Shown here: positions 16,422 to 28,738 of the stretch, piece after piece
How the letters are laid out: every line of letters begins with the position of its first letter
Position numbering within the stretch: the stretch's first letter is position 1
From: Isoalcanivorax pacificus W11-5
Lineage (GTDB): Bacteria > Pseudomonadota > Gammaproteobacteria > Pseudomonadales > Alcanivoracaceae
DNA: 64,000 nt
Assembly: GCF_000299335.2 (NCBI RefSeq)
Contig: NZ_CP004387.1
Location: forward strand, 2,046,001-2,110,000
Direction: 5' to 3'
Made by a program: the position numbers and the translations under genes
Notes under the pieces: model-generated
What the model saw: only the letters and a program-made list of their open reading frames with translations
Told to the model about the DNA's origin: nothing
The model's database searches: none

Positions 16422-16449
16422 AGTTCGCATAATGTATAGGAATTGAAAT
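16422..16449 (+). other. attL: left dif-type site of the prophage
   Basis: XerC arm AGTTCGCATAA (16422-16432), central TGTATA (16433-16438), then a poor XerD arm GGAATTGAAAT. The XerC arm and centre match the right site and known dif sites; the XerD arm keeps mainly the AAAT end. This is the pattern left by a Xer-dependent element: host XerC arm joined to the element's XerD arm. Confidence 0.85.
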
Positions 16450-16490
16450 GCGTTACACACCAGTCCATGGCGTGCAACGCATTGATTACA

Positions 16491-16778
16491 TTATGAAATC
16501 TGAGATGCTATCTTTCGCCATGTTTTTGTCAGATTGGCGTTTCCACGCCTAGTAATTCGCTCAAGTTGCAGGCTCATCAGCACCGTTTCGCGGGGGATTT
16601 TGAGGGCGTCTGCAACCCGTATTCCCGTCTCGTCATCCATCACTGTCCCCAGCTTGTACCAGTTGGCTACAGCCTGTTGGGACACTCCAAGAAGCTTGCT
16701 GACAGCATAAACTGATTCTTTGCCAATCAATGACTTGCATTGGTCTGCAAGCTCCATAGTCGAGTAAGTTCTGACCAT
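16491..16778 (-). CDS. Cro/CI-like helix-turn-helix phage repressor
   Basis: 95 residues with a helix-turn-helix in YAVSKLLGVSQQAVANWYKL, the form seen in small DUF3693-like phage regulators. The start at 16778 is fixed by GAGGTG six bases upstream; the longer frame to 16799 has no site. It is divergent from all early genes, the usual place for the lysogeny repressor. The stop lies about 40 bases inside attL. Confidence 0.8.
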   Translation of the reverse strand: MVRTYSTMELADQCKSLIGKESVYAVSKLLGVSQQAVANWYKLGTVMDDETGIRVADALKIPRETVLMSLQLERITRRGNANLTKTWRKIASQIS

Positions 16779-16892
16779 CACACGCACCTCAGCACACACA
16801 CGGAACGGAGAGCCGGCGTTCTGTCAAGCCCTCCGATTGCACACTGAATAGCCTACAGCCTGTTTTGTACTTTCTCCACGCCCTACTGACAC

Positions 16893-16921
16893 TTGAGTAA
16901 CGATAGGTAAGTGGGTATTCA
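16893..16921 (+). promoter_or_regulatory. Candidate early promoter
   Basis: TTGAGT and TATTCA separated by 17 bases, in the 229-base gap between the divergent repressor and the first early gene. The gap also holds a CA-repeat (16972-16993). No operator pair could be fixed by eye. Confidence 0.45.
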
Positions 16922-17007
16922 TATTGGCGCCAACCGGGGACGGGCCTTATGGCCCTGAACCCCGGCGGCCACACACACAAAAACACACACACATGAGGTT
17001 GGCGCCC

Positions 17008-17235
17008 ATGGGTACTAACGCGATGACAGCGGGGGCGGTCGCGCTCCCGCAATCTGAAATCCTTCCGATGAAAATTACCGCCGACACGGTGCGCGCATGG
17101 CGCGAGGCTGGCCGGTGGGGCATGGCCGGTACTGACATGCAGGTGTTGCTGCGCCTGCTCGCCGTAGTCGAGGCAGACGGGCCGCTGACGGTGATGGCTC
17201 CGGCGTTGCCGTGCCTGCAAGGGGGTGCAGCATGA
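17008..17235 (+). CDS. Small early phage protein, unknown
   Basis: About 75 residues with a helix-turn-helix-like stretch ITADTVRAWREAGRWG. I chose ATG 17008 because GAGG lies nine bases upstream; 16993 and 17023 are alternatives. The stop overlaps the start of the next gene (ATGA), showing translational coupling. It could be an early regulator; no family recognised. Confidence 0.6.
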   Translation: MGTNAMTAGAVALPQSEILPMKITADTVRAWREAGRWGMAGTDMQVLLRLLAVVEADGPLTVMAPALPCLQGGAA

Positions 17236-17861
17236 CTGTGTGCTTCAACTGTCGCGGCAAAGGCCGCGAACCGCTGAACGGGGCTATGACGTGCAGAGAG
17301 TGCAGAGGGACCGGGGTTTGGCCGATCCCTCTGGAAGATCAGTCAAGCAGCGCTGATGAGGGATGCCGGACCGAAAACGGTGTCAACGCCGGGCGGCAGG
17401 TCGGTAATGGATGCGGAGACATCGCGCATGCCGGCAAGGCTGGTGACGAACAGGCCGAATTCGTACAGGTCGCGGGAACTGGCGTTCATCAGGGTGACAC
17501 CCCTGTACACCTTCCCCCGCTTGTTGGCGATGCCGAAGGTTTGAGTGTGCATGCCATTGATCCAGCGTCGGCTGGTCAGCCATCCAGTGATCTGCCTGTC
17601 GATGAGCGGCTGCCGGTGGACGCTGCCGCCGATGTAGCGGGTAGTGAAGAAATCCATGGTGGTATTGGCTCCTTACCGGGTGTTGTGGATGAGCTATTAG
17701 AACATCGTCGGCGCCTCCAATGGCACCGGGTTGATGCGTTGGCCGACATACTGCGCGTAGAACTGGATAAGGCGCTGACCATGGACGGCCAGGATTTGGC
17801 CGTAGGTCGGAAGTCGATGGAGAAATACCTCGGAAAATTCATCTTTGGGGGTGGCGTATGA
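17232..17861 (+). CDS. Small Zn-finger protein, doubtful C-terminal extension
   Basis: The first 35 residues hold two DnaJ-type half-fingers, CFNCRGKG and CRECRGTG, which would bind one zinc; PM2 uses small Zn-finger proteins as transcription factors, so a regulatory role is possible. After about residue 38 the frame stays open to 17861, but its composition (Gly/Ala/Asp rich) is not protein-like and the other strand reads better there. The stop overlaps the start of the next gene by ATGA. Possibly a small gene into which an inverted cassette was inserted. Confidence 0.5.
   Translation: MTVCFNCRGKGREPLNGAMTCRECRGTGVWPIPLEDQSSSADEGCRTENGVNAGRQVGNGCGDIAHAGKAGDEQAEFVQVAGTGVHQGDTPVHLPPLVGDAEGLSVHAIDPASAGQPSSDLPVDERLPVDAAADVAGSEEIHGGIGSLPGVVDELLEHRRRLQWHRVDALADILRVELDKALTMDGQDLAVGRKSMEKYLGKFIFGGGV
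17343..17657 (-). CDS. Antisense phage protein, unknown
   Basis: 104 residues read against the early operon. Composition is natural (RYIGGSVHRQPLIDRQITGW, DLYEFGLFVTSLAGM), unlike the plus-strand frame it overlaps, and AAGGAG precedes the ATG by about ten bases. No family recognised; it may be a cargo gene. A second minus frame lies just upstream. Confidence 0.5.
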   Translation of the reverse strand: MDFFTTRYIGGSVHRQPLIDRQITGWLTSRRWINGMHTQTFGIANKRGKVYRGVTLMNASSRDLYEFGLFVTSLAGMRDVSASITDLPPGVDTVFGPASLISAA

Positions 17862-17879
17862 ACCCCGATCTAATCGCAC
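17697..17879 (-). CDS. Possible small antisense protein upstream of the 104-residue frame
   Basis: 60 residues from a GTG with AAGGTG ahead: begins MRLDRGSYATPKDEFSEVFL. Composition is plausible, and it would form a two-gene unit with the frame at 17343-17657. It overlaps the end of the Zn-finger frame and the start of the next plus-strand gene, so both strands cannot be equally real here. Confidence 0.3.
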   Translation of the reverse strand: MRLDRGSYATPKDEFSEVFLHRLPTYGQILAVHGQRLIQFYAQYVGQRINPVPLEAPTMF

Positions 17880-18166
17880 AGCAGCACCTTGACGGCATCC
17901 GTCGCGCTCTCGGCGTCACGCCGCCGGAGCTAACCCCAGAACAGGCCGCATGGGATGCGCTGACAAAACAGCAGCGCGCCTTCGTGCTGCGTGGCCTTGG
18001 CCTTGATCCTCACACACTCACATATCGCACGCTGACACTGCGCCAGCGGCAGGCATTCCGGCAGGCCGTGGAAGGCTGGGCGCAAAGTGCGGCGCGCCTT
18101 AATGGCATTATCGCCAGCGCCAACGCGGAGCAACTGCGGCGGCATCAATCAGTGGTGGCCGCATGA
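17858..18166 (+). CDS. Early phage protein, unknown
   Basis: 102 residues, helical and charged, with LTKQQRAFVLRGLGLDPH and LTLRQRQAFRQAVEGWAQ forming two similar basic helices; it may bind nucleic acid. Starts in an ATGA overlap with the gene before and ends in one with the gene after, so it belongs to the early operon. Confidence 0.6.
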   Translation: MNPDLIAQQHLDGIRRALGVTPPELTPEQAAWDALTKQQRAFVLRGLGLDPHTLTYRTLTLRQRQAFRQAVEGWAQSAARLNGIIASANAEQLRRHQSVVAA

Positions 18167-18348
18167 CGGAAGATGAGCTGATTTACGCGCTGGCGATGGA
18201 TGTACCGGCGATGTATCAGGGTTTCAGCATTGAAACTTCCTATGGGGAAATGCGCTTCAAAGGCGAAGATGCCGAGCGGGTTGCCATGCTGGTGGAAGTG
18301 CTGTTGCGGCTCCGGCTTGATGCCCTGCGCTCTGGGGGTGCTGCATGA
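18163..18348 (+). CDS. Small phage protein, unknown
   Basis: 61 residues, acidic N-terminus MTEDELIYALAMDVPAMYQG. Overlaps both neighbours by ATGA. No family recognised. Confidence 0.55.
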   Translation: MTEDELIYALAMDVPAMYQGFSIETSYGEMRFKGEDAERVAMLVEVLLRLRLDALRSGGAA

Positions 18349-18440
18349 AGCGATTTTCACGGGATGACGTGCGCGGCGTAGTTGAGGGTTTTGTTGTGCT
18401 GCTGATCATTGCGGCGCTGACATGGCAGGGGACTATCTGA
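18345..18440 (+). CDS. 31-residue single-helix peptide
   Basis: MKRFSRDDVRGVVEG then a hydrophobic FVVLLIIAALTW and a short end. GGGGGTG lies just before the ATG, and the frame overlaps the gene before by ATGA and touches the rep start (TGATG). A small membrane peptide, perhaps a virion or lysis peptide; inference. Confidence 0.5.
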   Translation: MKRFSRDDVRGVVEGFVVLLIIAALTWQGTI

Positions 18441-19549
18441 TGAATGGTGTGGTTGGCAACCAGACACCGATTGCAGGCAGCGAATTGGTGAAACTGGCCG
18501 CGCTCGCCGGCTACGTTGGCGACACGCTGCCGGGTGGTCGCATTGAGCAGCACGAAAACCTGCGCTGGGCGGCGAAGGCCGCTGGCCCGGCATGGGGCGA
18601 CGTGGGCGGGGAATACATCCGCACGGCAATGCGCGTCGGCTATTACAAGGCAAACGTCAAACTGCGCGAGCACCAGCCACTGGTGCGCGGCGACCTGTAT
18701 CTGGCCGCCGATGATGCCGATATCCGTTCATTCTGCGACCGCCGGGCAAAAGAGTGTGGCCGGGTGCTGGCTGTGGCCATGGGCAACAGTGCAAACCTGC
18801 GGGCGCCGCTGATTGATCCGGTGATAGAGGGGCTGCGCGAGTGCATGCCTGTGCTGGATCGCTACGGCTTGGACTGGCCGGCACCGAGTAGCCGCATCAC
18901 CGGGCCGGGCGCGGACCTGATGCCGTTGGTGCGCCGTTTGTGCTGCCATATCTGGTGGCGCCGGCAGGTGCGCCGGTTGCAAGCGCGTGAGGTGGACCAG
19001 TTGGCGCGGCAGCGCGAGCGGGTGGCGAAGTACCGGGAGTGTTATTGCTCGGATTTTGTCGTGCAGAACCGCCGGGCGGCGCAGCGCCGCAATCTGGAAA
19101 CACTGTCGCAGACCGTCGCGGTGAATGACGCCGGTCAAGAATACACACTCGCCGAACTGTCCGAGCTGGGTGTCAGCAACCTTGAAAACCGCCGCGCTGA
19201 ACTGATGACGCGCATCTCCGGTTTTGAAAAAGTGGCTGAGCAACGGGGTCACGTTGGTGAATTCTGGACGTTCACCACGGCCAGCCGCTGGCACCGCATG
19301 CGCTGGTTGAGCAAGGCGCGCCGGGCCGTGCCCGTGAGCCGCTGGAACGGCAGCACGCCGCGTCAGGTGCAGGACTGGCTGTGCATCCTCTGGGCACGTA
19401 TCCGCGCTGATCTGGACCGGCTGGGTATCCGTGTTTACGGCTTCCGGGTGGTCGAGCCGCACCATGACGGCACACCACACTGGCACCTTTTGGTTTTCAT
19501 GCGCGAGGCAGACCGCCGGGCAGCAAGGTGTGCCGCAAGCATCTGCTGA
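18440..19549 (+). CDS. Rolling-circle Rep (gpA family), N-terminal half with HUH motif
   Basis: About 369 residues. The metal-binding HUH motif of superfamily-I rolling-circle initiators is near the end ([13 protein letters not shown]); a basic region and [15 protein letters not shown] precede it. The frame stops just after the HUH motif at 19549, while the catalytic tyrosines are in another frame from 19528. The two parts together make about 632 residues, near the size of the PM2 P12 initiator. AGGGGA precedes ATG 18440 by seven bases. A one-base loss in the overlap (or a sequence error) would explain the split. Confidence 0.82.
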
Positions 19550-20337
19550 GTGATGACGGCGCGGAACGGGGTGCGTGGCGTGCACGCTTCGTTGCAAAGG
19601 CGATGGACCCGGCCAAAGGCACCGCGTCGGGCTATATCGCCAAGTACATAGCGAAAAACATTGATGGCCGTGGCGTGCGTGGTGCGCTGCAGTTGCAGGA
19701 TGACGACAGCGGGCTGGCGATGGAGGCCGGGGCGGAGCGTGTGCGCGCCTGGGCGAGTGCGTGGGGCATCCGGCAGTTCCAGCAGATCGGCGGGCCGAGT
19801 GTCACGGTGTGGCGCGAATTACGGCGCCTGATGAGTGAGTGCGAGCCGGGCACTGATGACCTGTTCGGGAATGTTGCCGTTGAAGCAGCGGGCGATGCGG
19901 CAGATTGCGGTGATTGGGCCGCCTTCGTTGAGTACATGGGTGGGCCGTGCCTGCCGCGCTGTGAGCGGCCAGCGTTGCCGGCGTACTGGATCGAGAATAC
20001 CCCTATAGGTACACCGGGCCGCGATGTCACTAGGTACGGTGACGATGCGAAGGGGGCCGTATTCGGTGTGTGGGTCAGGCGTTGCGAGGTCGTGGACGGT
20101 GAGTTTTATGGTCCGGTGCTGACACGGTTCTACCGCTGGGAAATCGAGCACCGCCCGCCTGCGCGTCAGGCGCTGCCGGACGGGCCGGGCGTGGATGCCC
20201 TGTTGGGCGCTGGTCTGATGTCAGAAATGTCAGGGCAGCGCCTGATGGCGCTGGTTGATGGGATTTTCGGTGCCGGTGCGCAGCACCGGGACCGTAATGC
20301 GGCGCCGGCAGGCGGCGCCTTGGAGTTCTGTCAGTAA
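19528..20337 (+). CDS. Rolling-circle Rep (gpA family), C-terminal half with YxxxY
   Basis: 269 residues from an in-frame GTG, continuing the gpA alignment: [17 protein letters not shown], then the two-tyrosine catalytic motif [12 protein letters not shown] that nicks and rejoins DNA. The GTG at 19528 is simply the first start-like codon; no ribosome site is visible, so separate translation is doubtful. Read with the half before it, the frame must step back one base. One CCTATAGG palindrome lies inside it at 20002. Confidence 0.8.
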
Positions 20338-20657
20338 CTGTACGGGTGAGATTCACCGGGGGATATCGAGATGGCAAGAAAGAACGGCGCCGTGACCGTG
20401 GCGCGAATGGACTGCATGTCACCGGACTGTGGCGAGCGTGTGGCGGTGTTTCAGAACGCGCTGGGGTATCTGTACACCCGGTGCCCGGAGTGCGCCTGTG
20501 ACCAGCGCAAGGGCGCCGGGCATCAGGCATACATCTGGCGCCATATGGAGCCGGTGGCGGGCGTGGAAATTGTGCGCCCGCCGAATTTGCCGGACGGGTA
20601 CGGGGAGCCGGGGCAGCCGCCGCAGTCCGCGCCGCCCGTGCCGGCGGAACCTATAGG
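20002..20657. repeat. CCTATAGG palindromes, copies 1 and 2
   Basis: Copy 1 at 20002-20009 and copy 2 at 20650-20657. Copy 2 runs into a perfect odd palindrome TAGGTAC-A-GTACCTA (20654-20668). Both lie inside coding sequence. Copy 3 is at 22004-22011. Confidence 0.7.
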
Positions 20658-20778
20658 TACAGTACCTACGGTGCAGAGTGAAAAGCGGGGTGGTGGTCTG
20701 GTCTGGTTGGCGCTGGGCCTGTTGGGTGTCGGCGTGGCCACGGTGGCCAGCGCCGCAGGTGCGGGGAGTCAGGTATGA
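20371..20778 (+). CDS. Zn-ribbon protein with C-terminal membrane helix
   Basis: 135 residues. Cysteine pairs in CMSPDCGERV and RCPECACDQ suggest a zinc ribbon; a proline-rich linker follows, then a hydrophobic LVWLALGLLGVGVATVASAA. Such small one-helix proteins surround the capsid gene in membrane-containing phages, so a virion or packaging role is inferred. Ends in ATGA with the next gene. Confidence 0.6.
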   Translation: MARKNGAVTVARMDCMSPDCGERVAVFQNALGYLYTRCPECACDQRKGAGHQAYIWRHMEPVAGVEIVRPPNLPDGYGEPGQPPQSAPPVPAEPIGTVPTVQSEKRGGGLVWLALGLLGVGVATVASAAGAGSQV

Positions 20779-21347
20779 GCAAGGGCAAGGTGGAAGGTAT
20801 GGACGCTGAACAGATCGACGGTGCCGAGTTGGTGCAGGAGCCGGGGCAGGGGCCTGCGCAGCAGTCGCTGGACAATCTGGACGCGCTGGACGCTGCCGAG
20901 CAGGCGGCGGCAACGCCGGAGGCCAGTGCGGAGTATGAGGAACAGCGGCAACAGAACGAACAGGCGGCGCAGTTGGGCGCGCATATGGCAGTAGGTTTTA
21001 CCGCGAAGATGCTGGAAATGCGGCTGCCCTACCTGCGGATCAGTGAGGGCGACAAGCGCGAGCTGGCCGAGTCGTTGGCGCCGGTGCTGGCCAAGCACGG
21101 CGGGGGTGGTGAGGTGCCGGCGTGGCTGGTGCCCTATCTGGATGAAATACGCTTCGGCATGAAACTGGCCGGCGTTGGCTTCGGATTGTGGTTGCAACAT
21201 CAGGCGCACGTCGCGCAGCAAGCGATAGAGCGTGCGCGGCAGGAGAGCCGGGAGCCACTGCGCCGGGTGGTTGAGCAGCCGCCGGCAATGGTGATCAGCG
21301 CGCCGGCTGTGGTGGCTGATCCGCTGGACCCCAGCGCGCAGGAGTGA
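20775..21347 (+). CDS. Phage protein of unknown function upstream of the ATPase
   Basis: 190 residues. An acidic, Gln/Ala-rich N-terminal half (predicted helical) is followed by RLPYLRISEGDKRELAESLA and a weakly hydrophobic helix GMKLAGVGFGLWLQH. Position directly before the packaging ATPase, two bases apart, suggests a partner in packaging or a membrane protein of the virion; inference only. Confidence 0.55.
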   Translation: MSKGKVEGMDAEQIDGAELVQEPGQGPAQQSLDNLDALDAAEQAAATPEASAEYEEQRQQNEQAAQLGAHMAVGFTAKMLEMRLPYLRISEGDKRELAESLAPVLAKHGGGGEVPAWLVPYLDEIRFGMKLAGVGFGLWLQHQAHVAQQAIERARQESREPLRRVVEQPPAMVISAPAVVADPLDPSAQE

Positions 21348-21349
21348 CC

Positions 21350-22030
21350 ATGCGATATCAACCCGTCAACCCGGACCCGTCGAAGCGAGCGCGGCACACG
21401 CTGTACCTCGCCACCACGGGCGGCGGCAAGTCTCAGGCCGTGAGGCAGAACCCGGTGATCCCGTGGGCGGACAAGTCAAGCCGGATCATCATGTGGGATC
21501 AGGCTGGGGATTACCCCGGCCTGCATTGCGACACCCGGCAGGGCTTCGTGCGAGCGCTGAAAAAGGGGCTGGCCAGCGGCGGCGGCGTGCAGGTTGCCTT
21601 TGCGGGCGTTGCCACGGTGGAAAATTGGGAATGGTGGTGTGAAGTGTGCTGGTCGGTGCTGGATGGCCGCTATGACACGCACATGATCGCGGAAGAGCTG
21701 TCAGCGGTTTGCGCGGGCGCAGGCAAGGCAACGCCGAATGCGGCGGTGCTGCTGAACCAGTCGCGGAAGTACGGTGGCATTTTCCACGGTGTCAGCCAGA
21801 AGCCGCAGGAGGTGGCCAAGACCTTCTATGATCAGGCGGCATTCAAGTGGATCGGCCAGCAGAAAGGGGTGGCAATGCAGCGCCGGATGGCGGCGGAAAT
21901 CGGTGTCACGCAACAGGACATTGCCGGGCTGGAGGAGTTGCAGTTTTTCGTGGATGACGGCAGCGCCCGGCGGCCTGAGCTGGTCAAGTTGAAGTACCGG
22001 AAACCTATAGGGGTGAGGTGGGCGGCCTGA
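21350..22030 (+). CDS. Genome-packaging ATPase, HerA/FtsK superfamily (PM2 P9-like)
   Basis: 226 residues, the size of the PM2 P9 ATPase. Walker A is ATTGGGKSQ near the N-terminus, Walker B-like IIMWDQAGDYPG, and a later sensor region VLLNQSRKYGGIFHGVSQKP. It would pump the genome into the membrane vesicle of preformed capsids. Start at ATG 21350 is set by AGGAG five bases ahead, overlapping the stop of the preceding gene region. Zot of filamentous phages is related but longer and has a membrane helix, absent here. Confidence 0.85.
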   Translation: MRYQPVNPDPSKRARHTLYLATTGGGKSQAVRQNPVIPWADKSSRIIMWDQAGDYPGLHCDTRQGFVRALKKGLASGGGVQVAFAGVATVENWEWWCEVCWSVLDGRYDTHMIAEELSAVCAGAGKATPNAAVLLNQSRKYGGIFHGVSQKPQEVAKTFYDQAAFKWIGQQKGVAMQRRMAAEIGVTQQDIAGLEELQFFVDDGSARRPELVKLKYRKPIGVRWAA

Positions 22031-22049
22031 CCGCCCCGTACCTAACGGG

Positions 22050-22064
22050 TGTTGTACCTATAGG
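22050..22064 (+). repeat. 15-bp direct repeat, left copy, around the VapBC cassette
   Basis: TGTTGTACCTATAGG, identical to 22822-22836. It contains CCTATAGG copy 4. It lies just after the ATPase gene, whose last codons hold copy 3 (22004-22011). Confidence 0.75.
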
Positions 22065-22068
22065 GCTG

Positions 22069-22086
22069 TGGTAAGCTGTCTTACCA
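22069..22086. promoter_or_regulatory. Operator-like inverted repeat before vapB
   Basis: TGGTAAG-CTGT-CTTACCA, 7-base arms with a 4-base spacer, 22 bases before the antitoxin start. AbrB-type antitoxins usually bind such palindromes in their own promoter. Confidence 0.6.
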
Positions 22087-22107
22087 GACTTACAGGAGGG
22101 CCGCCCA

Positions 22108-22386
22108 ATGGCAGAAACAGAGGTCAGCATTTCCACGAAAGGGCAGGTAGTGATCCCCAAGGCGCTGCGGGATGCCATGCATTGGAAGGCCGGGCAAAAG
22201 CTGGTGATTGAGCAGGTCGGTAGCCGGGTGGTCATCCGGGAAAAGCCGACAGCCAAAAAGCATAGCATCCGTGAGGTGGCTGGCATGTTGAGCGAGTACG
22301 CGAAGGGCAGGCCACCAACAGAGTCGGAAATGAGCGAGGCCATAGGGCGGGGCATCGCTGACGAATACAGGAAAAGCATGAAATGA
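22108..22386 (+). CDS. vapB: AbrB/VapB-type antitoxin
   Basis: 92 residues with a swapped-hairpin AbrB DNA-binding domain: STKGQVVIPKALRDAM and VIEQVGSRVVIREKP. The C-terminal part wraps the toxin in this family. AGGAGG eight bases ahead. Overlaps the PIN toxin gene by ATGA, the standard arrangement. Likely keeps the prophage in the cell or blocks other phages; inference. Confidence 0.9.
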   Translation: MAETEVSISTKGQVVIPKALRDAMHWKAGQKLVIEQVGSRVVIREKPTAKKHSIREVAGMLSEYAKGRPPTESEMSEAIGRGIADEYRKSMK

Positions 22387-22775
22387 TCGTGGCGGACACC
22401 AATGTTGTTTTGCGCGTGCTGGTGCGAGATGACGAAAAACAAGAGGCGCAGGTGCTGGACGTGATAGCGCGTGAGGGTGTGCTGGTCCTTGATTCTGTGC
22501 TGCTGGAAGCCCGGTGGGTAATGGAGGGCTTCTATGGTATGTCGCGTGAGAAGATCGCGGCGGGGCTGGTGGCGCTGTTGACCTCGGCAGAGGTCGAAGC
22601 GGAGTCACCTTACATGGTCAAGGCGATACAGTGGTATGGCGCTGGAATGGATTTCGGGGATGCAGTGATATTGGCCGGCGCGAACCGTCACGGCGCGGAC
22701 ACGCTGGTCACCTTCGACAAGGCGTTTATCAAAAAGGCCAAGGGTAAAACCTCATGCGCTGTGCGTCAGCCATGA
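22383..22775 (+). CDS. vapC: PIN-domain VapC-type toxin ribonuclease
   Basis: 130 residues. Acidic residues of the PIN active site: Asp5 in VADTNVVLRVL, Glu in LLEARWVMEGFY, and the pair in GMDFGDAVILAGAN / LVTFDKAF. Mg-dependent RNase, held by the antitoxin encoded in front. No membrane or signal sequence. A terminator follows. Confidence 0.9.
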   Translation: MIVADTNVVLRVLVRDDEKQEAQVLDVIAREGVLVLDSVLLEARWVMEGFYGMSREKIAAGLVALLTSAEVEAESPYMVKAIQWYGAGMDFGDAVILAGANRHGADTLVTFDKAFIKKAKGKTSCAVRQP

Positions 22776-22793
22776 CCTCAAAACAGACATGAC

Positions 22794-22817: not shown

Positions 22818-22821
22818 TGCC

Positions 22822-22839
22822 TGTTGTACCTATAGGTAC
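22822..22839. repeat. 15-bp direct repeat, right copy, with 14-bp palindrome
   Basis: TGTTGTACCTATAGG again (22822-22836), extended here to a perfect palindrome GTACCTATAGGTAC (22826-22839). Fifth copy of CCTATAGG. With the copy at 22050 it brackets exactly the operator, vapBC and terminator. Confidence 0.75.
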
Positions 22840-22942
22840 GGTACATCTTTTCGCTTCCATCCTGACCACCCGCCGCGCTTTCCTGAATAGGCACACCGGG
22901 ATGCACACCCGGAAGAACCGGGCCACCCGCCCGGCACACACG

Positions 22943-22973
22943 ACACGGCGCCCGCTCCGGCGGGCCGTGTTTT
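22943..22973 (+). terminator. Long GC-rich terminator hairpin before the late genes
   Basis: ACACGGCGCCCGC and GCGGGCCGTGT arms with a TCCG loop, then four T. Together with the terminator at 22794 it isolates the late genes, so a late promoter should lie between 22840 and 22999 or read-through must occur; I could not fix one. Confidence 0.7.
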
Positions 22974-22998
22974 CGGCTATCAGGAAAAGGGGCAACAA

Positions 22999-23097
22999 AT
23001 GGGCATTCTCAAGAATATTGGTCTGGGCGCGCTGGGCGCTGCGGGTCTGATGCTGCTGGCAAAGCATGTTCAGCCGGTCGGCAAAATCCTGCGCTGA
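22999..23097 (+). CDS. 32-residue one-helix virion-type peptide
   Basis: MGILKNIGLGALGAAGLMLL followed by a basic end (KHVQPVGKILR). AAGGGG precedes the ATG. Directly upstream of the capsid gene, where PM2-like phages carry tiny membrane proteins. Confidence 0.6.
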   Translation: MGILKNIGLGALGAAGLMLLAKHVQPVGKILR

Positions 23098-23132
23098 TCG
23101 CGGGATAACGGGGCAAAGGGGAAGGGAAAAAG

Positions 23133-23951
23133 ATGCTGCGTGTACCGCGTGAAGTGAAATCGTTTGATGGTGTGGGCTGGGGCCAGAAACCGCAGGTCAA
23201 GCTGGCCGGTGGCCCCACCTATCATGAAATCGTGTTCGAAACCAATCTGCTTCCGGAGCAGATCGTGATGGCCACGCTGTGGCTGAACGGTGATCCGATT
23301 GTGCAGATGACTGGCCAGCAGATGGTCATGCTCGAACGCTACAAAAAACACTGGGAAGAACCGGGCCGGTTCGTTATGCCGCTGGCTGATATCTCGGGCG
23401 CGAGCCTCGAAGGTCAAAGCCTGTCAGCGCTGCCGACCTTCCCGGCGGATAACCTGATTTTGCAAGTCCAGGTCGCACAGGAGCCGGCGCCGAACACGCA
23501 GGGCAGTGTTGCTCTGAAAGCTGATGCGTGGGTGTCTCGCCATGTGGGCGTGCGGTCGCATATCAGCCGGATCACTACCACCACGTTCAACGCGGGCGCC
23601 AATGGCCGGAACATTCTGGACACCCTGCCGAACAACGGGCAACTGATCCGCCGTATGCACCTGCTGGGCGATATCGCGAACCTGCGTATCCGCAAGGATA
23701 AAAACGTGGTGTACGAGCAGGACGCCGGCAAGAACGTCTACCACCTGAAACGCCGCAAGCTGGCGCCGCAGGCGGGTTATTACCATTTCGATCCTGTGCA
23801 GTCGCACTTCATCCGGGCGGAGCAATTCGATACGCGGGTAGTCGAGTCGCTGGAATTTGAGATGGACGTGAGCACGCCGGGGAACATTGCGATTTTTAGC
23901 GAAGTGCTGGAACCGCTGAAAAATCCGGTAGGCGTGCAGGCGGCAGCCTGA
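23133..23951 (+). CDS. Major capsid protein, PM2 P2-like double jelly roll
   Basis: 272 residues, close to PM2 P2 (269). Its N-terminal course (a hydrophilic start, TYHEIVFETNLLPEQI, LWLNGDPIVQMTGQQMVML) follows the order of P2: a strand, a SQIKNV-like turn, the DG-containing strand and a helix ending in basic residues. Two similar beta-rich halves can be seen, the second starting near the RRMHLLGDIANLRIRKD strand. Trimers would form the capsid shell around the inner membrane. AAGGG lies seven bases before the ATG. Confidence 0.85.
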   Translation: MLRVPREVKSFDGVGWGQKPQVKLAGGPTYHEIVFETNLLPEQIVMATLWLNGDPIVQMTGQQMVMLERYKKHWEEPGRFVMPLADISGASLEGQSLSALPTFPADNLILQVQVAQEPAPNTQGSVALKADAWVSRHVGVRSHISRITTTTFNAGANGRNILDTLPNNGQLIRRMHLLGDIANLRIRKDKNVVYEQDAGKNVYHLKRRKLAPQAGYYHFDPVQSHFIRAEQFDTRVVESLEFEMDVSTPGNIAIFSEVLEPLKNPVGVQAAA

Positions 23952-24012
23952 TATCGGAACGGGGGACACTGGCCGGCTAAGTCCGGCCAGTTATTTCTGC
24001 AAGGGGGAGAAC

Positions 24013-24336
24013 GTGCTCGGTTGGCTTGAAAAAACCGCAAAGCAGGTGCGTGACGCTGCCAGCGAAACGCTGGAAGGCATCGGCGAAGACGTGGCCGGCG
24101 CGCTGGTGGGGGCCGTATCTATTCCACCGAAAACCACTACCGACAACGGCAAAACGCAGGTGGACGTGGGCGACAACGGGACCGGGGGCACCGTGGTGCA
24201 GCCGACGCCGACCGGCGTTGTGGGCGGGATGACCGCCGGGCTGCCGTCATGGGCGGTGCCGGTGTCGTTGACGGTGGCCGGGCTGACGGTGGCCACTGTG
24301 GTGGTGGGGCTGGTCATTGGGGGGCGTAAGAAGTGA
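24013..24336 (+). CDS. Virion membrane protein, C-terminal helix
   Basis: 107 residues from GTG with GGGGGAG four bases ahead. An amphipathic N-terminus (MLGWLEKTAKQVRDAASETL), a Thr/Gly linker and a C-terminal helix (AVPVSLTVAGLTVATVVVGL) ending in basic residues. The layout repeats in the next two genes, as if the three are assembly relatives. ATGA-type overlap (GTGA) with the next gene. Confidence 0.6.
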   Translation: MLGWLEKTAKQVRDAASETLEGIGEDVAGALVGAVSIPPKTTTDNGKTQVDVGDNGTGGTVVQPTPTGVVGGMTAGLPSWAVPVSLTVAGLTVATVVVGLVIGGRKK

Positions 24337-24557
24337 TTGGCGTGCCGGGTATTTCAACGGGGGGCGGGGGCATCTCCGGGGGCATGGCGCAGTCGGGTGC
24401 GCAAGCCTCCGGCGGTACTCGTGGAAGTTCCAGTGTCGACCTGTCCTATAACCCCAGCGGCAAAGTGCCGGGCTGGGTGACACCGGTCGGCATCGGCTTG
24501 GCGATCCTGGCCGCCGGCACGCTGGTAACGGTCGCTGTGCGCGGCAGGGGGCGATGA
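24333..24557 (+). CDS. Virion membrane protein, glycine-rich
   Basis: 74 residues from GTG. Gly/Ser-rich head (STGGGGISGGMAQSG), then a helix VTPVGIGLAILAAGTLVTVA and a basic tail RGRGR. Same plan as its neighbours: soluble head, one helix near the C-terminus. Confidence 0.55.
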   Translation: MIGVPGISTGGGGISGGMAQSGAQASGGTRGSSSVDLSYNPSGKVPGWVTPVGIGLAILAAGTLVTVAVRGRGR

Positions 24558-25045
24558 TGTTCGGGGGGAGCAGTAGCAGTAACACCACGCTGGACACGGG
24601 CGATAAAAATTACCAACAGGCTGGAAACCAAGGGCTGAACCTCGCCGGTATGGATGTGCGCCGGAACAGCAGCGTCAACGCCACGGACAATTCCGGCAAT
24701 CAAGGCTTTGTGGTGGGCAATATCACTGCGCAGCGCAACAGCACCACGAATGTGAATCTGACACAAACGGATCATGGTGCGGTGGCCGGCGGCTTGGCGC
24801 TGGGAAGTCAGGCGCTCACAGAAATGAGCGATTTTGGCAGCGAGGCGTTGTTCAGCATGCAGATGCTGGCGCAGCAACAACAGGCAGCAAGCCGTGATCA
24901 GGTGAGCGAAATTGGCCGGTTGGCCGAGACGTTCCGCTCTGACGGCGCGAGCACCACGCAGCGCAACATGCTGTATCTGGGTGGCGGCCTGCTGGTGTTC
25001 AGTGCGGTGGCCATTATCGCGGTGACGTGGAAGGGGAAAAAGTAA
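24554..25045 (+). CDS. Virion membrane protein, Asn/Ser/Thr-rich head
   Basis: 163 residues. The head is rich in Asn, Thr and Gly (NNSTTNVNLTQTDHG-like), as in beta-helical or fibre-like shafts; a Gln-rich helical part follows, then LLVFSAVAIIAVTW and a lysine end. May be the internal-membrane protein linked to the vertex. Start 24554 or 24557. Confidence 0.55.
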   Translation: MMFGGSSSSNTTLDTGDKNYQQAGNQGLNLAGMDVRRNSSVNATDNSGNQGFVVGNITAQRNSTTNVNLTQTDHGAVAGGLALGSQALTEMSDFGSEALFSMQMLAQQQQAASRDQVSEIGRLAETFRSDGASTTQRNMLYLGGGLLVFSAVAIIAVTWKGKK

Positions 25046-25705
25046 ATGCGTGAAGTGCTGCAAGTAGGCGAACACGTCACCCGCGCTGCGCAGGGCGTCT
25101 ATGTGTTCATCCGGCAGGCTGACGGGCCGGTGTATATCACGGCGCTGATGCAGGATGGCCGGCAGTCCGGGCATGAGCTGTACCACGGGCAACAGGTGGA
25201 GCTTGTTGGTGAGATCCGCGAGCTGAAAATCCAGAACCTGCATGCTGCCGTGAACACGGTGGTGATCGGTACAGGATATGGCCGTTTCCACCCGCGTCAG
25301 GACGGGCAGGAAATGACCATCGTCGGCCAGTCCGATCCGCTGACAGTTGGTAACGATGATCAGCACCCGCTGCATGTCATCAATGAGTATGAACAAACGG
25401 TCGTCACTGACCCGGCGCAGCCGCTGGATGTGAAGCACCAGCCGCCGGCAGGCCAGGTCAACGCGCTGCCGGAAATTGTGCCGGACGTGACCGGCGCGGT
25501 GGTGCCGGCCAGCGCCGGGCGTCGGGCGCTGCTGCTGCGTGCTGCGCCGGACAATACAGGTCTGATCTGGCTATCCGGCGCCGCAGGTGTGGGGCTGCCA
25601 CTGGCGGCCACTGACGGCCTGTTGAAACTGGAAACCACGGCAGCGGTTGATCTGTTGGCCACCAATGCCACCGATAAAATCTTTGTGATGGAGTTGATCG
25701 CATGA
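25046..25705 (+). CDS. Late structural protein, possible vertex/penton protein
   Basis: 219 residues, beta-rich, no membrane segment. It falls in two parts: an N-terminal domain (REVLQVGEHVTRAAQGVYVF ... ELKIQNLHAAVNTVVIGTG) and a C-terminal domain with RRALLLRAAPDNTGLIWLS, which looks like the DUF-type beta-sandwich common in phage vertex and head-decoration proteins. Directly upstream of the spike module genes. Penton role is inference. Confidence 0.5.
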   Translation: MREVLQVGEHVTRAAQGVYVFIRQADGPVYITALMQDGRQSGHELYHGQQVELVGEIRELKIQNLHAAVNTVVIGTGYGRFHPRQDGQEMTIVGQSDPLTVGNDDQHPLHVINEYEQTVVTDPAQPLDVKHQPPAGQVNALPEIVPDVTGAVVPASAGRRALLLRAAPDNTGLIWLSGAAGVGLPLAATDGLLKLETTAAVDLLATNATDKIFVMELIA

Positions 25706-25884
25706 ATGTAGCGAATCGCATTTCAACGCTGGCCGAGCAGAACGATGTGGAGTTTGAGGCACGCGGCAATGATGCAAACGATATTGCAGCGCTGGCCGAG
25801 GCACTGGAAATCGAACTGGATTATGCCGGCAGCGATGATAACGCGCTGGACTTCTTGGAAGCTGAGTTGGCAGAGGCCGCATAA
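25702..25884 (+). CDS. 60-residue stand-alone spike-module protein
   Basis: It carries two copies of a motif with the core YAGSDDNALDFLEAEL (second copy) and ARGNDANDIAALAEALEIEL (first copy). The same module opens the next gene. ATGA overlap with the gene before. It may be a plug or an assembly partner for the spike base; inference. Confidence 0.6.
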   Translation: MNVANRISTLAEQNDVEFEARGNDANDIAALAEALEIELDYAGSDDNALDFLEAELAEAA

Positions 25885-25886
25885 CA

Positions 25887-26750
25887 GTGCCGGCTATTGT
25901 GGTGCCGGCTGCGGCTGATCTGGTGGCGCTGAACGCGGTGGCAGGTCAGGCGGGGCTGCCTGTCGAGTATAACGGCAGCGTACGCAACGCCATTGAAGCG
26001 GTGGCCGCTGCTGGGGGCGTCTCCCTGAACTATTCAGGCAGCGACAGGAATGCAATAGAAGTTCTAGCCAGGCTTCTTGGCGAGAAAAATATCGTTTGCG
26101 CGTGGCCACTGTCGGCAGACCAGAACGAAATATCAGTTGTGGCACCGGGAGCGATTCGTCCGACCTTAGAAAATAATGATATGACGATTGTGCATACACT
26201 GAAATCTCAGTTGGTTGAATGGGAGCAGTATTACGCAATGTCAGCAGGTATGGCTACGGGAGAAGCGCCATTCGCAGACCTTTCCGATGGCGTGGTGGCA
26301 ATGCAAATTAGCTTTGATGAACTGCCGCAAGTATCCAGCAATGCCGGTGTTTTAACTGGGATTGCATTGCTTGGTGGGGGCGGGGAAGTGCTTGCTGTTC
26401 AAGTTAGTATCTCGGCGGAATACGAGAGCGGATATCAGTTGATTGTGGGCGGTATGGATAGTGAACCACCGCAGCAAATAGAGCTTTCTGGTAGGCCCTT
26501 TGCGATGGGGATTTCTCTCGACAATGCAGCCAAGACTGCGACGGTAAAAATTGACGGTCAACAGATTGCAGTAGTTTCTTGGGGCGGAGGAAATAGCGCC
26601 CAGCCCATTATGATAATTAATGAATTTTCAGGGGTATCTAGCGAGCACGCCGGACAAATTTATCGCATCACATTGAATACAGATGCGGCACATATAGATG
26701 CCGCTAACGTGCTTCCCGGTGCGCTCGATTTCTGCGGCAATACGATATGA
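25887..26750 (+). CDS. Spike/receptor-binding protein with repeated N-terminal module
   Basis: 287 residues from GTG. Residues about 20-65 hold two motif copies (VEYNGSVRNAIEAVAAAGG and NYSGSDRNAIEVLARLL) shared with the 60-residue protein before it. The rest is a beta-sandwich with LamG/ConA-lectin look (FAMGISLDNAAKTATVKIDG then QQIAVVSW). Base composition falls clearly from about 26040 on, in the receptor-binding part. PM2's spike P1 is of similar size and sits at the same genome region. Calcium or sugar binding cannot be shown. Confidence 0.65.
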   Translation: MPAIVVPAAADLVALNAVAGQAGLPVEYNGSVRNAIEAVAAAGGVSLNYSGSDRNAIEVLARLLGEKNIVCAWPLSADQNEISVVAPGAIRPTLENNDMTIVHTLKSQLVEWEQYYAMSAGMATGEAPFADLSDGVVAMQISFDELPQVSSNAGVLTGIALLGGGGEVLAVQVSISAEYESGYQLIVGGMDSEPPQQIELSGRPFAMGISLDNAAKTATVKIDGQQIAVVSWGGGNSAQPIMIINEFSGVSSEHAGQIYRITLNTDAAHIDAANVLPGALDFCGNTI

Positions 26751-27313
26751 GGAAGAGGGCAATAATGAGCGTTGTGGCTATTACTGGCGTACTGCTTCTG
26801 TTGTACGCACATCGCGGCAAGCGCCGTGATGACCTGAATCTGAAATATTTTTCACAGGCAGAGTTCGGCGCATATTGGCCGATGATGAATATTGGCCTGC
26901 TGAAAAAGCTGGATGCATTCCGCGCTGCGCTCGGCTACCCGGTGGCGATATCGCCGGCAGCCGGCGCGATAGGCCGCCCGATTATTGGCAGCGACGGTCA
27001 ACTCGGTGAGGCGGAGTCAAGCGCGGAAAAATCGTGGCACAACTACCTGCTGCACGGCGAGATTATGGCCATTGATGTGATGCCGGTGCCGCCGGGCGGT
27101 GCCACACCGGCAGAACGGCAGCGCTGGGTGGACGTGGCGCGACAAGTGGGCTTCACCGGCATTGGTGTGTATCCGCACTGGCGGCCACGTCCGGGCCTGC
27201 ATCTGGACGTTCGCACGGATCGCACGCCGGATAACCCGGCGACGTGGGCCGGTGTGCGTAATGATCAGGGCAAGCAGGTGTATGTGGGAATTCAGCAGGG
27301 AGTGCTTGCCTGA
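26747..27313 (+). CDS. Membrane-anchored M15-like peptidase (lysin)
   Basis: 188 residues. An N-terminal helix (VVAITGVLLLLYAH) could be a signal anchor. The zinc-peptidase pattern of the M15/VanY-like fold is visible: SWHNYLLHGEIMAIDVMP (His ... Asp) and PGLHLDVR (HxD). It would cut peptidoglycan peptides at entry or release. ATGA overlap with the spike gene; ATG 26765 is an alternative start. Both sites read in the same frame. Confidence 0.7.
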   Translation: MRKRAIMSVVAITGVLLLLYAHRGKRRDDLNLKYFSQAEFGAYWPMMNIGLLKKLDAFRAALGYPVAISPAAGAIGRPIIGSDGQLGEAESSAEKSWHNYLLHGEIMAIDVMPVPPGGATPAERQRWVDVARQVGFTGIGVYPHWRPRPGLHLDVRTDRTPDNPATWAGVRNDQGKQVYVGIQQGVLA

Positions 27314-27612
27314 TGGCTATTCTGACGGATCGTCAGGCGCTGGGCGTGGCCGTGGGCGGCACGGTGCTGGTGGTGGGCGGCATCTGGTATGCCCGCCGGA
27401 AAATGGCCGCTGTGGCCGATGCGGTGCAGGCAGGGGTCGGGGCTGTAGCAGAGGCAGTGAACCCGGCTGACTCGGGCAATCTGGTCAACCGGGTACATGA
27501 ATGGTGGTGGCAGAACACGGTAGGCCGGGTGACTGGCCAGAAAGAGGGCGGCATCGGCATCTGGCTTGCTGATGTGCTGAATCCGGCGCCGAACGATGAG
27601 GGGGTATTGTGA
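27313..27612 (+). CDS. Small membrane protein of the virion
   Basis: 99 residues. One helix (LGVAVGGTVLVVGGIWYA) followed by RRK, then a long tail with ADSGNLVNRVHEWWWQNTVG and GIWLADVLNP. This tail layout is seen in small proteins of tailless and other membrane-associated phages. It follows the lysin without a gap, so an entry or lysis-related role is possible. Confidence 0.6.
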   Translation: MAILTDRQALGVAVGGTVLVVGGIWYARRKMAAVADAVQAGVGAVAEAVNPADSGNLVNRVHEWWWQNTVGRVTGQKEGGIGIWLADVLNPAPNDEGVL

Positions 27613-27794
27613 AAAAGTTTCTGGAAAAACTGAAAGGGCTGAACGGCAAGATGGTAGGCGTGCTGCTGACCTGCGTGCTGATGGGCGCGGGCGTGCCGGT
27701 ACATCAGGCGGTGACGGCGGGCAATGCAGCCGGCGATATCGTGGACACAATGAAAGGGGGAGTGCGAGAGCATGGCGAAGAAAAAGCGGAGTAA
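27609..27794 (+). CDS. Small protein with N-terminal hydrophobic helix
   Basis: 61 residues from GTG, overlapping the gene before. Basic start MKKFLEKLKGLNGKM then VGVLLTCVLMGAGVPV: a signal-like or membrane helix. A cysteine inside the helix is not in a lipobox context I trust. Late gene, function unknown. Confidence 0.5.
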   Translation: MKKFLEKLKGLNGKMVGVLLTCVLMGAGVPVHQAVTAGNAAGDIVDTMKGGVREHGEEKAE

Positions 27795-27888
27795 TGCCAC
27801 GGCGGCCAAACGGGCAGACGGCACGCTTAAAAAGGGCTGGAAATACGCCAAGGGTGGCCGCCCGGTGCGTGCGAAGGCAAAACGCTGA
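27772..27888 (+). CDS. 38-residue highly basic peptide
   Basis: MAKKKRSNATAAKRADGTLK then GWKYAKGGRPVRAKAKR. About a third of residues are Lys or Arg, so it should bind DNA or the capsid interior; similar tiny basic proteins occur in PM2-like and microvirus virions. Overlaps its neighbours on both sides. Confidence 0.6.
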   Translation: MAKKKRSNATAAKRADGTLKKGWKYAKGGRPVRAKAKR

Positions 27889-28064
27889 TGGAAGCGGGCA
27901 TGACAGAATGGGGCAATCTGGGCCTGAATGGCGCGGCGGTGCTTTTTCTGTACGGGATGAGCCGCGATATCCGCGAGTTGGCCGGCAAGCAGGTCGATAT
28001 GTGGCGCTGGATTGAGAGAATCCGGCGCCACATGTGGCCGAGTGTTTTCTCCAAATCGGAATGA
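27888..28064 (+). CDS. 58-residue phage protein with one weak helix
   Basis: MEAGMTEWGNLGLNGAAVLF and then a charged end DMWRWIERIRRHMWPSV. Starts in a TGATG overlap (ATG 27888, or 27900). A strong terminator follows five bases after the stop, so this is the last late gene. Function unknown. Confidence 0.5.
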   Translation: MEAGMTEWGNLGLNGAAVLFLYGMSRDIRELAGKQVDMWRWIERIRRHMWPSVFSKSE

Positions 28065-28069
28065 CAGTG

Positions 28070-28092
28070 GCCCGCTATCTGCGGGCTTTTTT
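28070..28092 (+). terminator. Rho-independent terminator ending the late operon
   Basis: GCCCGC-TATCT-GCGGGC followed by six T. It overlaps the 3' end of the convergent DUF3653-like gene. Confidence 0.88.
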
Positions 28093-28605
28093 CTGGATGG
28101 CGGATGGTTGCGGATTCAGGGGCATGGTGTTGTCAACATGCAGGAAGTCCGCATCTATAGAAAGCCGGTCAAGCAGGCGTTCCTGTATCACGGTGTTCTG
28201 TCGTTCCAGCCGGTGCTGCTGGTCTATGCTTCCATTCGGTGACCAGTAGTCAATATGGCGCCCTGTGATCCGCTGTAGTTCTCGGCGCCAGTCATCGGCG
28301 AACTGGCGCAGGAACCACCAGCCTTCCAGCCGTGAGCGGTCCCACCAGTAGCTGTGGTGTGCCCGGTGTTCAAAAAGGGTATCGCCATTAATTCGCCAGC
28401 CGTCCCATTCTGGAAACGGCAGCCAGCCAAAAACATGCATTTCCAGCAGGCGCAAAGATGGCGGTTCAATGTTCCCGGTATCGGCCCAGCGGTGCGCGGT
28501 GCGCACCGATCTGCCGGTTACTTCTGCTGCTTTCCTGATGCTGATAGACCCGTAAAGTCCAGTTTTCTGGCATTCGAGCCTTATTCTTTTATACTCAATT
28601 TTCAT
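28075..28605 (-). CDS. DUF3653-like phage regulator
   Basis: 176 residues. A helix-turn-helix SIRKAAEVTGRSVRTAHRWA is followed by MHVFGWLPFPEWDGWRINGD and a Trp/Tyr-rich region (SYWWDRSRLEGWWFLRQFAD), the layout of DUF3653 phage proteins. Converges on the late operon and lies next to the right attachment site, so it can control the late genes or excision. It is the only other minus-strand gene with clear phage features. Confidence 0.7.
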   Translation of the reverse strand: MKIEYKRIRLECQKTGLYGSISIRKAAEVTGRSVRTAHRWADTGNIEPPSLRLLEMHVFGWLPFPEWDGWRINGDTLFEHRAHHSYWWDRSRLEGWWFLRQFADDWRRELQRITGRHIDYWSPNGSIDQQHRLERQNTVIQERLLDRLSIDADFLHVDNTMPLNPQPSAIQKKARR

Positions 28606-28710
28606 ATGAACAATATCTTTAATGGCTAAATATTCTGAAATGGCAGGAATCCACCATTTCTATTTGACGTGCGCCCGTGTGTGTGCATCCGGCGCCTTGC
28701 CATTATATCA

Positions 28711-28738
28711 ACTGCGCATAATGTATATTATGTTAAAT
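28711..28738 (+). other. dif: dif site (attR), complete
   Basis: XerC arm ACTGCGCATAA (28711-28721), centre TGTATA (28722-28727), XerD arm TTATGTTAAAT (28728-28738). The centre and XerD arm equal the E. coli dif sequence as I know it; the XerC arm differs in the first two bases only. This should be the working chromosome-dimer resolution site now. It lies 28 bases from the stop of the LVGG protein gene. Confidence 0.93.

Follow-up and report, generated by a model that had tools for sequence, protein, structure and literature searches.

Phage PM2, the type virus to which the element described here is compared, has been described as strictly lytic (PMC1950889), and a presumptive dif site has been published for it (PMC9966536). 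Krupovic and Bamford (2007) reported 13 putative PM2-like prophages in aquatic bacteria, named integrases in three of them, and cited CTXphi-type Xer use for comparison (PMC1950889); the accessible text of that paper gives no dif site for a PM2-like element and does not name Alcanivorax. NO16, for which the family Asemoviridae has been proposed, is temperate and spontaneously induced, and its gene 7 was published as a signature gene whose product BLAST predicted to be an S-adenosylhomocysteine (SAH) hydrolase that also has a DNA-binding domain; the accessible parts of the account do not connect it with Xer activation (PMC9966536). A 2024 study of tailless prophages in V. cyclitrophicus left undecided whether host XerCD or an own integrase is used (PMC11630473). 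The satellite phage TLCphi has an attachment (att) site in which the XerC arm and centre are dif-like and the XerD arm is divergent (PMC4246890, PMC5357621).

Since tailless prophages at dif have been published (NO16, Jorvik, and those of Vibrio), the kind of element is already known. A preliminary description of the present locus stated that such phages had been reported in Vibrio, which is right but too narrow, as dif-like att sites have also been published for Jorvik, from Alphaproteobacteria (PMC10589892), and for a Flavobacterium ssDNA phage. We found no open-access paper that joins Alcanivorax with tailless phages. Here we analyse a window of 64,000 nucleotides from the chromosome of Isoalcanivorax pacificus W11-5, together with related loci.

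Results

Attachment sites and chromosome context

A PM2-like prophage of 12.3 kb occupies positions 16422-28738 of the window and is flanked by two dif-type sites. When up to 2 mismatches were allowed, a relaxed dif pattern had two matches in the complete 4.17-Mb genome of this Alcanivoracaceae strain, at window positions 16422-16449 and 28711-28738, whereas the reversed control pattern had none in the whole genome. With up to 3 mismatches, a scan of the window gave one match, the right site, against 0.01 expected. A chance origin of both sites is ruled out by these counts, and the preliminary description, which had placed the ends in two dif-type sites at the chromosome dif, is borne out genome-wide; its bounds, 16433 and 28727, coincide with edges of the central hexamers in the two sites.

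The left site, attL (16422-16449, forward strand), reads AGTTCGCATAA-TGTATA-GGAATTGAAAT, that is, a host XerC arm, the centre, and a phage arm corresponding to a degenerate XerD arm. Its XerC arm and centre have the same sequence as the dif of a congener. The right site, attR (28711-28738, forward strand), reads ACTGCGCATAA-TGTATA-TTATGTTAAAT, with a phage XerC arm and the host XerD arm, and is a full gammaproteobacterial dif, rebuilt in canonical form. The left site was rejected as the true dif, the right one being canonical and the left retaining one arm. The predicted attP, ACTGCGCATAA-TGTATA-GGAATTGAAAT, is identical to the one proposed in the preliminary description and fits the TLCphi type, with an XerC arm and centre like dif and a divergent XerD arm.

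Rejoining the ends predicts an attB that equals the dif of the congener G035 at 28/28 bases. The site is uninterrupted in G035, with flanks 82-88% identical, and thus provides the empty site that had been suggested as a check. By sequence, both ends trace back to one crossover within TGTATA. In the 4.168-Mb chromosome the dif of the window is found at 2.0747 Mb and dnaA at 1.2 kb, and GGGNAGGG 8-mers, which we take to be the FtsK-orienting motif of E. coli, flip strand at dif (7 forward and 0 reverse on the left, 1 and 8 on the right).

Capsid, ATPase and other genes

The major capsid protein (23133-23951, forward) matches P2_N (1.5e-43) and P2_C (1.9e-31) and is 20% identical to the PM2 capsid protein. 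Because a sequence search against the PDB gave no match, folds were compared instead. The predicted structure (pLDDT 85.7) is a double jelly roll with PM2 P2 as its nearest structure (2vvf; Z 26.4, rmsd 2.7, 256 residues), the outcome anticipated from the letters alone. The packaging ATPase (21344-22030, forward; PHROG 2666, 6e-19) resembles PM2 P9 (29% identity, 2e-9) and precedes the capsid gene as in PM2; here the two are separated by a toxin-antitoxin-type cargo pair, a MazE-like antitoxin and a PIN-domain protein (22108-22775, forward; PF04014 7e-9, PF01850 9e-11). PHROGs names the ATPase 'terminase large subunit', a label also found on a PM2 record, and the right-end gene at 28075-28605 'tail assembly protein' (5e-6). 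Judged by sequence and modelled fold, the element has the P2-type capsid and P9-type ATPase that define Vinavirales or PM2-like phages (Corticoviridae in the wide sense). In an unrooted capsid tree, NO16 forms a supported clade with PM2, Cr39582 (a near copy of PM2), GXT1010, G750 and G145. The window capsid is outside that clade, near G093, G009 and G374 (82-89% support); it is not monophyletic with NO16 and so not in the proposed Asemoviridae.

The early end begins with a repressor-like HTH regulator that adjoins the degenerate arm (16491-16799, reverse; PHROG 4441 2e-15, PHROG 638 7e-11), and homologues of it sit at the early end of other elements. Small early ORFs at 17211-17861, 17858-18166 and 18163-18348 (forward) match no family above the cut-off, and two ORFs at 20371-21347 (forward) are placed by position where PM2 has P13/P14/gp h. 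Small ORFs of a putative structural region (24013-26750, forward) were assigned by position and gene order relative to PM2 and two Vibrio phage records; they include a proposed spike at 25887-26750, for which no homology support was found. The next ORF (26747-27313, forward) is probably a cell-wall peptidase: the lysin call made earlier draws on the place of the ORF, a weak PHROG peptidase match (0.037) and an M15-like pattern noticed on visual inspection, and an annotated L-Ala-D-Glu peptidase occupies a similar place in Vibrio phage PE003. Small late ORFs follow (27313-28064, forward). No integrase family was found by Pfam in 26 ORFs of the element, 20 of which were also searched with PHROGs, in agreement with the preliminary description.

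The HUH rep gene lies in two frames. Its N-terminal piece (18422-19549, forward; Phage_GPA 5e-56, PHROG 91 8e-80) carries the HWH motif, and its C-terminal piece (19528-20337, forward; Phage_GPA 2e-10, PHROG 91 4e-64) the YIAKYIAK tyrosine motif in another frame, the frame change falling between these motifs, whose roles are presumed here. As read from the sequence, rep is broken or recoded. The prophage had been called complete, a description that the split in rep makes only partly right; because of this split, the copy may not replicate. The frame change also speaks for a decayed remnant, an old dif integration that is now fixed, although recoding or an error in the sequencing could account for the lone change, the other genes of the parts list are open frames, the capsid model is regular, and the centre and host arms are retained in both att sites. 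Decay of this kind is a real possibility that we hold somewhat doubtful, and it is compatible with the explanation preferred below, so that the two are not exclusive.

The gene beside the rebuilt dif

The gene at 28075-28605 (reverse) adjoins the rebuilt dif at the late end and encodes an HTH followed by a conserved W-x-G-[FW] region. Its product scores 22.8 bits (7e-5) on NF040522, the VC1465 Xer recombination activation factor family, for which the curated cut-off is 70. We dropped this match as proof of kinship with XafT, the activation factor of TLCphi, since a NadS-type HTH protein obtains 24.3 bits through its HTH; the link therefore leans on relatives. Among these, NF040522 matches G750 (3.6e-15), NO16 (1.6e-12), PE003 (2.6e-12), L103 (5e-12), PE002B (5.7e-11), G093 (3.9e-9) and PM2 orf a (1.9e-7), the best of them at 56 bits and thus under the cut-off; G193 reached only 0.0044, and G371 and G107 had no direct match. 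For several relatives the match to the activation-factor family extends outside the HTH.

A family profile was built from ORFs chosen by position in dif-type elements and from Vibrio phage PE002B. In its leave-one-out form it recovers the window protein at 2.8e-17, and at 2e-8 with the part after the HTH alone; without the HTH, 4 of 11 members (G371, G193, G145 and G107) are not clearly recovered. The predicted structure (pLDDT 74, pTM 0.53) gave a best E of 1.3, with low probabilities, in a PDB fold search. By its sequence, the window protein is a distant relative of the XafT/VC1465 family and, scoring under 70 bits, not a member.

Relatives with dif sites and relatives with integrases

Twenty loci of the order were fetched: six lie between two dif-type sites, with no integrase in the ORFs scanned; twelve lack a dif pair and carry an early-end integrase ORF; in two neither was found. 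Searching IMG/VR with the single capsid protein gave no relatives, and with the capsid alignment two loci. Capsid places on other contigs (G183, G252, G102:C133) and a 9.8-kb contig (L085) were left out, as was L082, a second copy in G352, from the tree and the XafT counts. Three of 13 named loci (L092-L094) repeat G009, G093 and G052. A dif pair is present in L101 and an XafT-like gene in L096, and L095 and L099 were assigned an integrase by blastp only. L103, with an XafT-like gene and one half site, is not counted; L031, L033 and L096 are unlabelled because both ends were not established; and L097, L098, L100, L102, L104, L105, L108, L109 and L076 were assigned to neither class. Two integrase-type loci, L070 and L087, have loose lone dif-like matches without a partner; the background of the half-site scan was 10 loose matches in 383,328 shuffled bases.

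The family profile picks out an XafT-like gene in all dif-type elements but one (14 of 15; 4 of the matches are weak, and L106 has none between its sites) and in 0 of 13 integrase-type elements, an absence that is partly a self-chosen test because the profile ORFs had themselves been selected by position from elements of the dif type. Fisher values for such counts do not correct for relatedness among the elements. NF040522 itself, at E up to 0.1, matches directly within the element beside the rebuilt dif in 7 of 9 dif-type genomes and inside the element in 0 of 10 genomes of the integrase type; the count was confined to elements, as 12 of 14 control genomes also matched at this threshold in whole-genome searches. 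On the unrooted capsid tree the dif/integrase state switches at least 5 times. The better attP arm is on the late-gene side in 15 of 15 elements.

These counts bear on a simpler explanation, in which the phage has only a dif-like attP, host XerCD acts unaided, and the HTH gene at the late end serves ordinary transcription control. The authors of the NO16 and Jorvik studies propose plain XerCD use, the essentials in Table 2 of PMC4246890 for three vibriophage classes are only XerC, XerD, the att site and dif, and the window protein is weak on the XafT family, an HTH-driven match of similar score being known. We nevertheless consider unaided use unlikely, because the gene and the dif state switch together on the tree, the gene is found in 14/15 against 0/13 elements, and several relatives match the family past the HTH.

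A dif-targeting tyrosine integrase encoded elsewhere might also act instead of XerCD. In G009 a tyrosine recombinase is encoded outside the element, about 110 bp from the early-end site, in which two XerD-arm bases differ from dif, and the Vibrio tailless prophages at dif are said regularly to carry integrases (PMC11630473), contrary to the split seen here. The crossover in the window, however, lies in the 6-bp XerC/D central region with the Xer arms retained, no integrase was found in the element, and none of 99 ORFs of at least 150 aa from ten relatives belongs to an integrase family (an overlap filter dropped some L034 and L074 ORFs, which were partly inspected). This makes an external integrase highly improbable.

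Discussion

The reading that we regard as probable is that a PM2-like (Vinavirales) prophage entered by XerCD recombination between attP and the host dif and is kept by its degenerate arm, with the XafT-like protein activating XerCD. Host XerCD use, also proposed in the preliminary description, fits the evidence and is inferred. That description holds for the prophage and its dif site; it does not mention that rep changes frame, that the right end holds an XafT-like gene or that the attachment site has a polarity.

Entry by XerCD would have consequences at both junctions. The intact phage XerC arm would rebuild a canonical dif at the late end, so that dimer resolution could continue. At the other junction, to judge from the analogous cases of TLCphi and the gonococcal island, the degenerate XerD arm would hinder recombination by FtsK-driven XerCD, and the prophage would therefore not be lost at each generation. 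The XafT-like protein may activate XerCD without FtsK for integration and excision, and so fill the role that integrases have in sister phages; we base this on where the gene lies, on its distant homology, and on its occurring together with dif sites and not with integrases. The late genes would point at the rebuilt dif because the better attP arm is on the late side.

NO16 shares with the window element a PM2-like capsid and ATPase, a dif-type attP (3280-3307) whose XerC arm is the good one and faces the late side, and an XafT-like gene 7 that adjoins attP; it differs in capsid clade and host. PM2 shares the capsid fold, the P9 ATPase, the ATPase-capsid order and an XafT-like gene, orf a. Its presumptive dif at 747-774, above orf a and below orf c, has the good arm toward orf a, but this arm is of the XerD type instead of the XerC type, and the PM2 half site alone, at one mismatch, is within chance (2 found, 0.65 expected). 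Jorvik is likewise a member of Vinavirales with no predicted integrase and proposed XerCD use, but its att is in the RuBisCO operon (PMC10589892). Of the V. cyclitrophicus tailless prophages, also Vinavirales, a few are inserted at dif (PMC11630473). TLCphi has its own activation factor, XafT, the namesake of the family that the window gene resembles (PMC4246890, PMC5357621, PMC9765430), but is without structural virion genes, whereas the window holds a double-jelly-roll phage whose factor is a distant relative of XafT below the family cut-off.

Three points appear to be new. As judged from sequence, a probable XafT-like gene sits beside the rebuilt dif and would have the NO16 'SAH hydrolase' gene and PM2 orf a as relatives; we found no link between XafT and tailless dif phages in the open-access literature. 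The XafT-like gene tracks dif-type elements and was found in none of the 13 integrase-type ones. The better attP arm always faces the late genes, which fixes the orientation. We lean towards a wider proposal, that integrase-less PM2-like phages, PM2 included, carry a dedicated Xer activation module that consists of the XafT-like protein and an asymmetric attP, its better arm being XerC-type in some and XerD-type in others. This module would be swapped with an integrase module, would set the late genes toward the rebuilt dif, and would make PM2 temperate-type by design.

A helper-like gene beside dif points to a way in which such phages could use the Xer enzymes of their host and perhaps also activate them. 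A phage-encoded activator, if true, would explain both entry and exit without an integrase and the escape from FtsK at each division. An unexplained gene of PM2, the type virus, would gain a function, as would the published 'SAH hydrolase' family marker, and an XerD-type attP would represent a mirror-image class beside the three classes tabulated in PMC4246890. Xer activation factors would then extend to double-jelly-roll viruses.

Gene content of the prophage

The window spans bases 2046001-2110000 of a complete genome of 4,168,427 bases, and the preliminary description of its host as Alcanivorax-like was right at the family level. The prophage (16422-28738) carries a PM2 P2-type capsid gene, a P9-type ATPase gene, and a Phage_GPA-type HUH Rep gene, with a divergent repressor-like gene on its left side and a series of small late genes. 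Among solved structures, the capsid model matched PM2 P2 best (2vvf, Z 26.4, rmsd 2.7, 256 residues), with lower fold matches to STIV (Z 20.8) and PRD1-type proteins (Z 18.5-19.8). Rep is split over two frames, one holding the HWH motif and the other the YIAKYIAK motif; a single ORF matches both pieces in the relative G152 and others like it. The split may stop replication of this prophage copy. A MazE/PIN toxin-antitoxin-type pair (22108-22775) is carried as cargo, flanked by the packaging ATPase gene on one side and capsid genes on the other.

Prophage ends and the empty site

A relaxed dif pattern matched the whole genome twice, once at each end of the element, and the reversed pattern, used as a control, gave no match in the whole genome. 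The dif position is about mid-chromosome, opposite dnaA, and GGGNAGGG 8-mers change strand there (from 7:0 to 1:8). The congener G035 aligns with both flanks at 82-88% identity, on the left as far as 16369 and on the right starting at 28715, and has an intact dif and ∼40 less conserved bases in between. Taking the XerC arm and centre from the left site (16422-16449) and the XerD arm from the right site (28711-28738) gives a sequence identical to the G035 dif at every base. This match indicates that the left site combines the host XerC arm with a phage arm, that the right site combines a phage XerC arm with the host XerD arm, and that the phage restored a canonical dif. An IS3-type insertion (29205-30464, two ORFs), missing in G035, lies immediately right of dif and adjoins the end of a large ORF judged by eye to be ankyrin-like.

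Survey of relatives

The P2_N family was found in 21 of the 390 genomes searched from the order, against none of 14 controls, and in 4 of 369 genomes of the class (including that of the window). Loci were fetched for 20 of the 23 places besides the window's own. Six are flanked by two dif-type sites 10.5-14.3 kb apart (p 6e-10 if 0.5% of places have a full dif within 20 kb, which assumes one full dif per ∼4 Mb). In twelve others, the early end carries a tyrosine integrase ORF and there is no dif pair (Pfam for 11, blastp only for L082); neither feature was found in the remaining two, one of which is a short contig. Four further dif-flanked cases are G009, from the same family, Enterovibrio calviensis (L101), G750, and an IMG/VR contig (L106).

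The left flank of G009 resembles that of G006, in which no P2-type capsid gene was found, up to the final dif base (98% identity). On the far side, G009 has 4.1 kb of additional private DNA, unmatched in G006, with a tyrosine recombinase gene (L034, 16925-18127) ∼110 bp beyond the early-end site of the prophage; this segment may be another element stacked at dif. Two PM2-like prophages in the complete genome G352 (C1:165666 and C1:4092548; L081 and L082) have equal capsid scores, and both have an integrase-like ORF. A 9943-base contig of a Lentisphaerae MAG (L103, JAIVGW010000255.1) holds a PM2-like capsid fragment, a XafT-like gene, and a dif-like half site at 4668, and may be a phage genome in the wrong bin.

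A XafT-like gene beside the rebuilt dif

A minus-strand gene at 28075-28605, between the late genes and dif and on the opposite strand to the former, weakly matches the NCBIfam 'VC1465 family Xer recombination activation factor' (7e-5). XafT of this family is reported to let one V. cholerae IMEX escape FtsK dependence (PMC9765430). Relatives also matched: G750 (3.6e-15), NO16 gene 7 (1.6e-12), PE003 (2.6e-12), L103 (5e-12), PE002B (5.7e-11), G093 (3.9e-9), and PM2 gp a (1.9e-7). The 70-bit family cut-off was reached by neither the window protein nor any of these relatives; G371 and G107 gave no direct match to the family, and G193 just 0.0044. In a genome-wide scan (E up to 0.1), an in-element match adjoined the rebuilt dif in 7 of 9 dif-type genomes, and none of 10 integrase-type genomes had an in-element match.

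A profile of 11 XafT-like proteins recovered every omitted member in leave-one-out searches (2e-7 to 1e-17); the post-HTH part alone recovered 7 at ∼5e-4 or better, and not the other 4. With the full profile, 14 of 15 dif-type elements had the gene and none of the 13 integrase-type elements did (p 7e-7, with no correction for relatedness).

Several points weigh against a role for XafT-like proteins and XerCD. Direct sequence homology of the window protein to the activation-factor family is weak, and the profile counts rest on members picked from positions that we chose. The profile found no XafT-like gene in dif-type L106, and a tyrosine recombinase lies near the G009 element. Tailless V. cyclitrophicus prophages at dif are described as regularly carrying integrases (PMC11630473), a pattern that differs from the dif-flanked elements sampled here.

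The NO16 gene at 3558-3989 (L122, MH730557) has been published and annotated as encoding S-adenosylhomocysteine hydrolase, but its match is to the Xer activation factor family; Vibrio phage PG21 (OM867525) bears the same annotation. In PM2 (L032), orf a (77-550) is XafT-like, and the published presumptive dif site (747-774), overlapped by the small annotated orf b, lies between orf a and orf c.

Module exchange and attP arm polarity

The capsid tree requires six changes between dif-type and integrase-type states, five of them forced by well-supported branches. Sister pairs differing in state are G009/G374 (83% capsid identity), G107/G407 and, less firmly, G193/G322; in the first two, structural genes are collinear and the ends unlike. 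The co-occurrence and the state changes are what one expects if a XafT-like gene and attP together replace the integrase.

In a hand-compiled table of dif-type sites and gene direction, all 11 integrated elements have a complete or near-complete dif at the late-gene end and a degenerate-arm junction at the repressor end. L106 shows little contrast (2 mismatches versus 0 in the XerC part), and the degenerate arm is partly kept in L074 and L073. Four circular or phage records, NO16 (3280-3307), PM2, Cr39582, and GXT1010, have the same polarity, giving 15/15; two of these records, PM2 and Cr39582, are near copies. Of the 15, eight have a XerC-type better arm, as in TLCphi, and seven a XerD-type one, including PM2, G009, and Endozoicomonas G052. 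The four integrated elements among these seven lie the other way round with respect to dif; late genes point toward the rebuilt dif whichever the arm type. The XerD-type mirror form was not found among the three vibriophage classes of Table 2 in PMC4246890.

Proposed mechanism

The incoming circle would recombine with dif via XerCD. Because one attP arm is degenerate, the crossover would yield one canonical dif and one crippled site, and the cell would retain dimer resolution. The crippled site should offer FtsK-activated XerCD little grip, by analogy with one gonococcal island site at which E. coli FtsK is reported to behave this way in vitro (PMC5357621). Once the repressor beside the crippled site is lifted, excision would begin, with XerCD activated by the XafT-like protein, and rolling-circle replication from Rep would follow. 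This is the most likely course, its first half drawn from sequence and its second from analogy.

Our searches of open-access papers gave no report of the XafT-like gene, its kinship with the NO16 'SAH hydrolase' and PM2 orf a, attP arm polarity, or a swap of XafT-like and integrase modules. Published accounts already describe PM2-like prophages (PMC1950889), dif-like att sites of NO16 (PMC9966536) and Jorvik (PMC10589892), and dif insertion in Vibrio (PMC11630473). The Alcanivoracaceae case adds a new member to the PM2-like prophages at dif.
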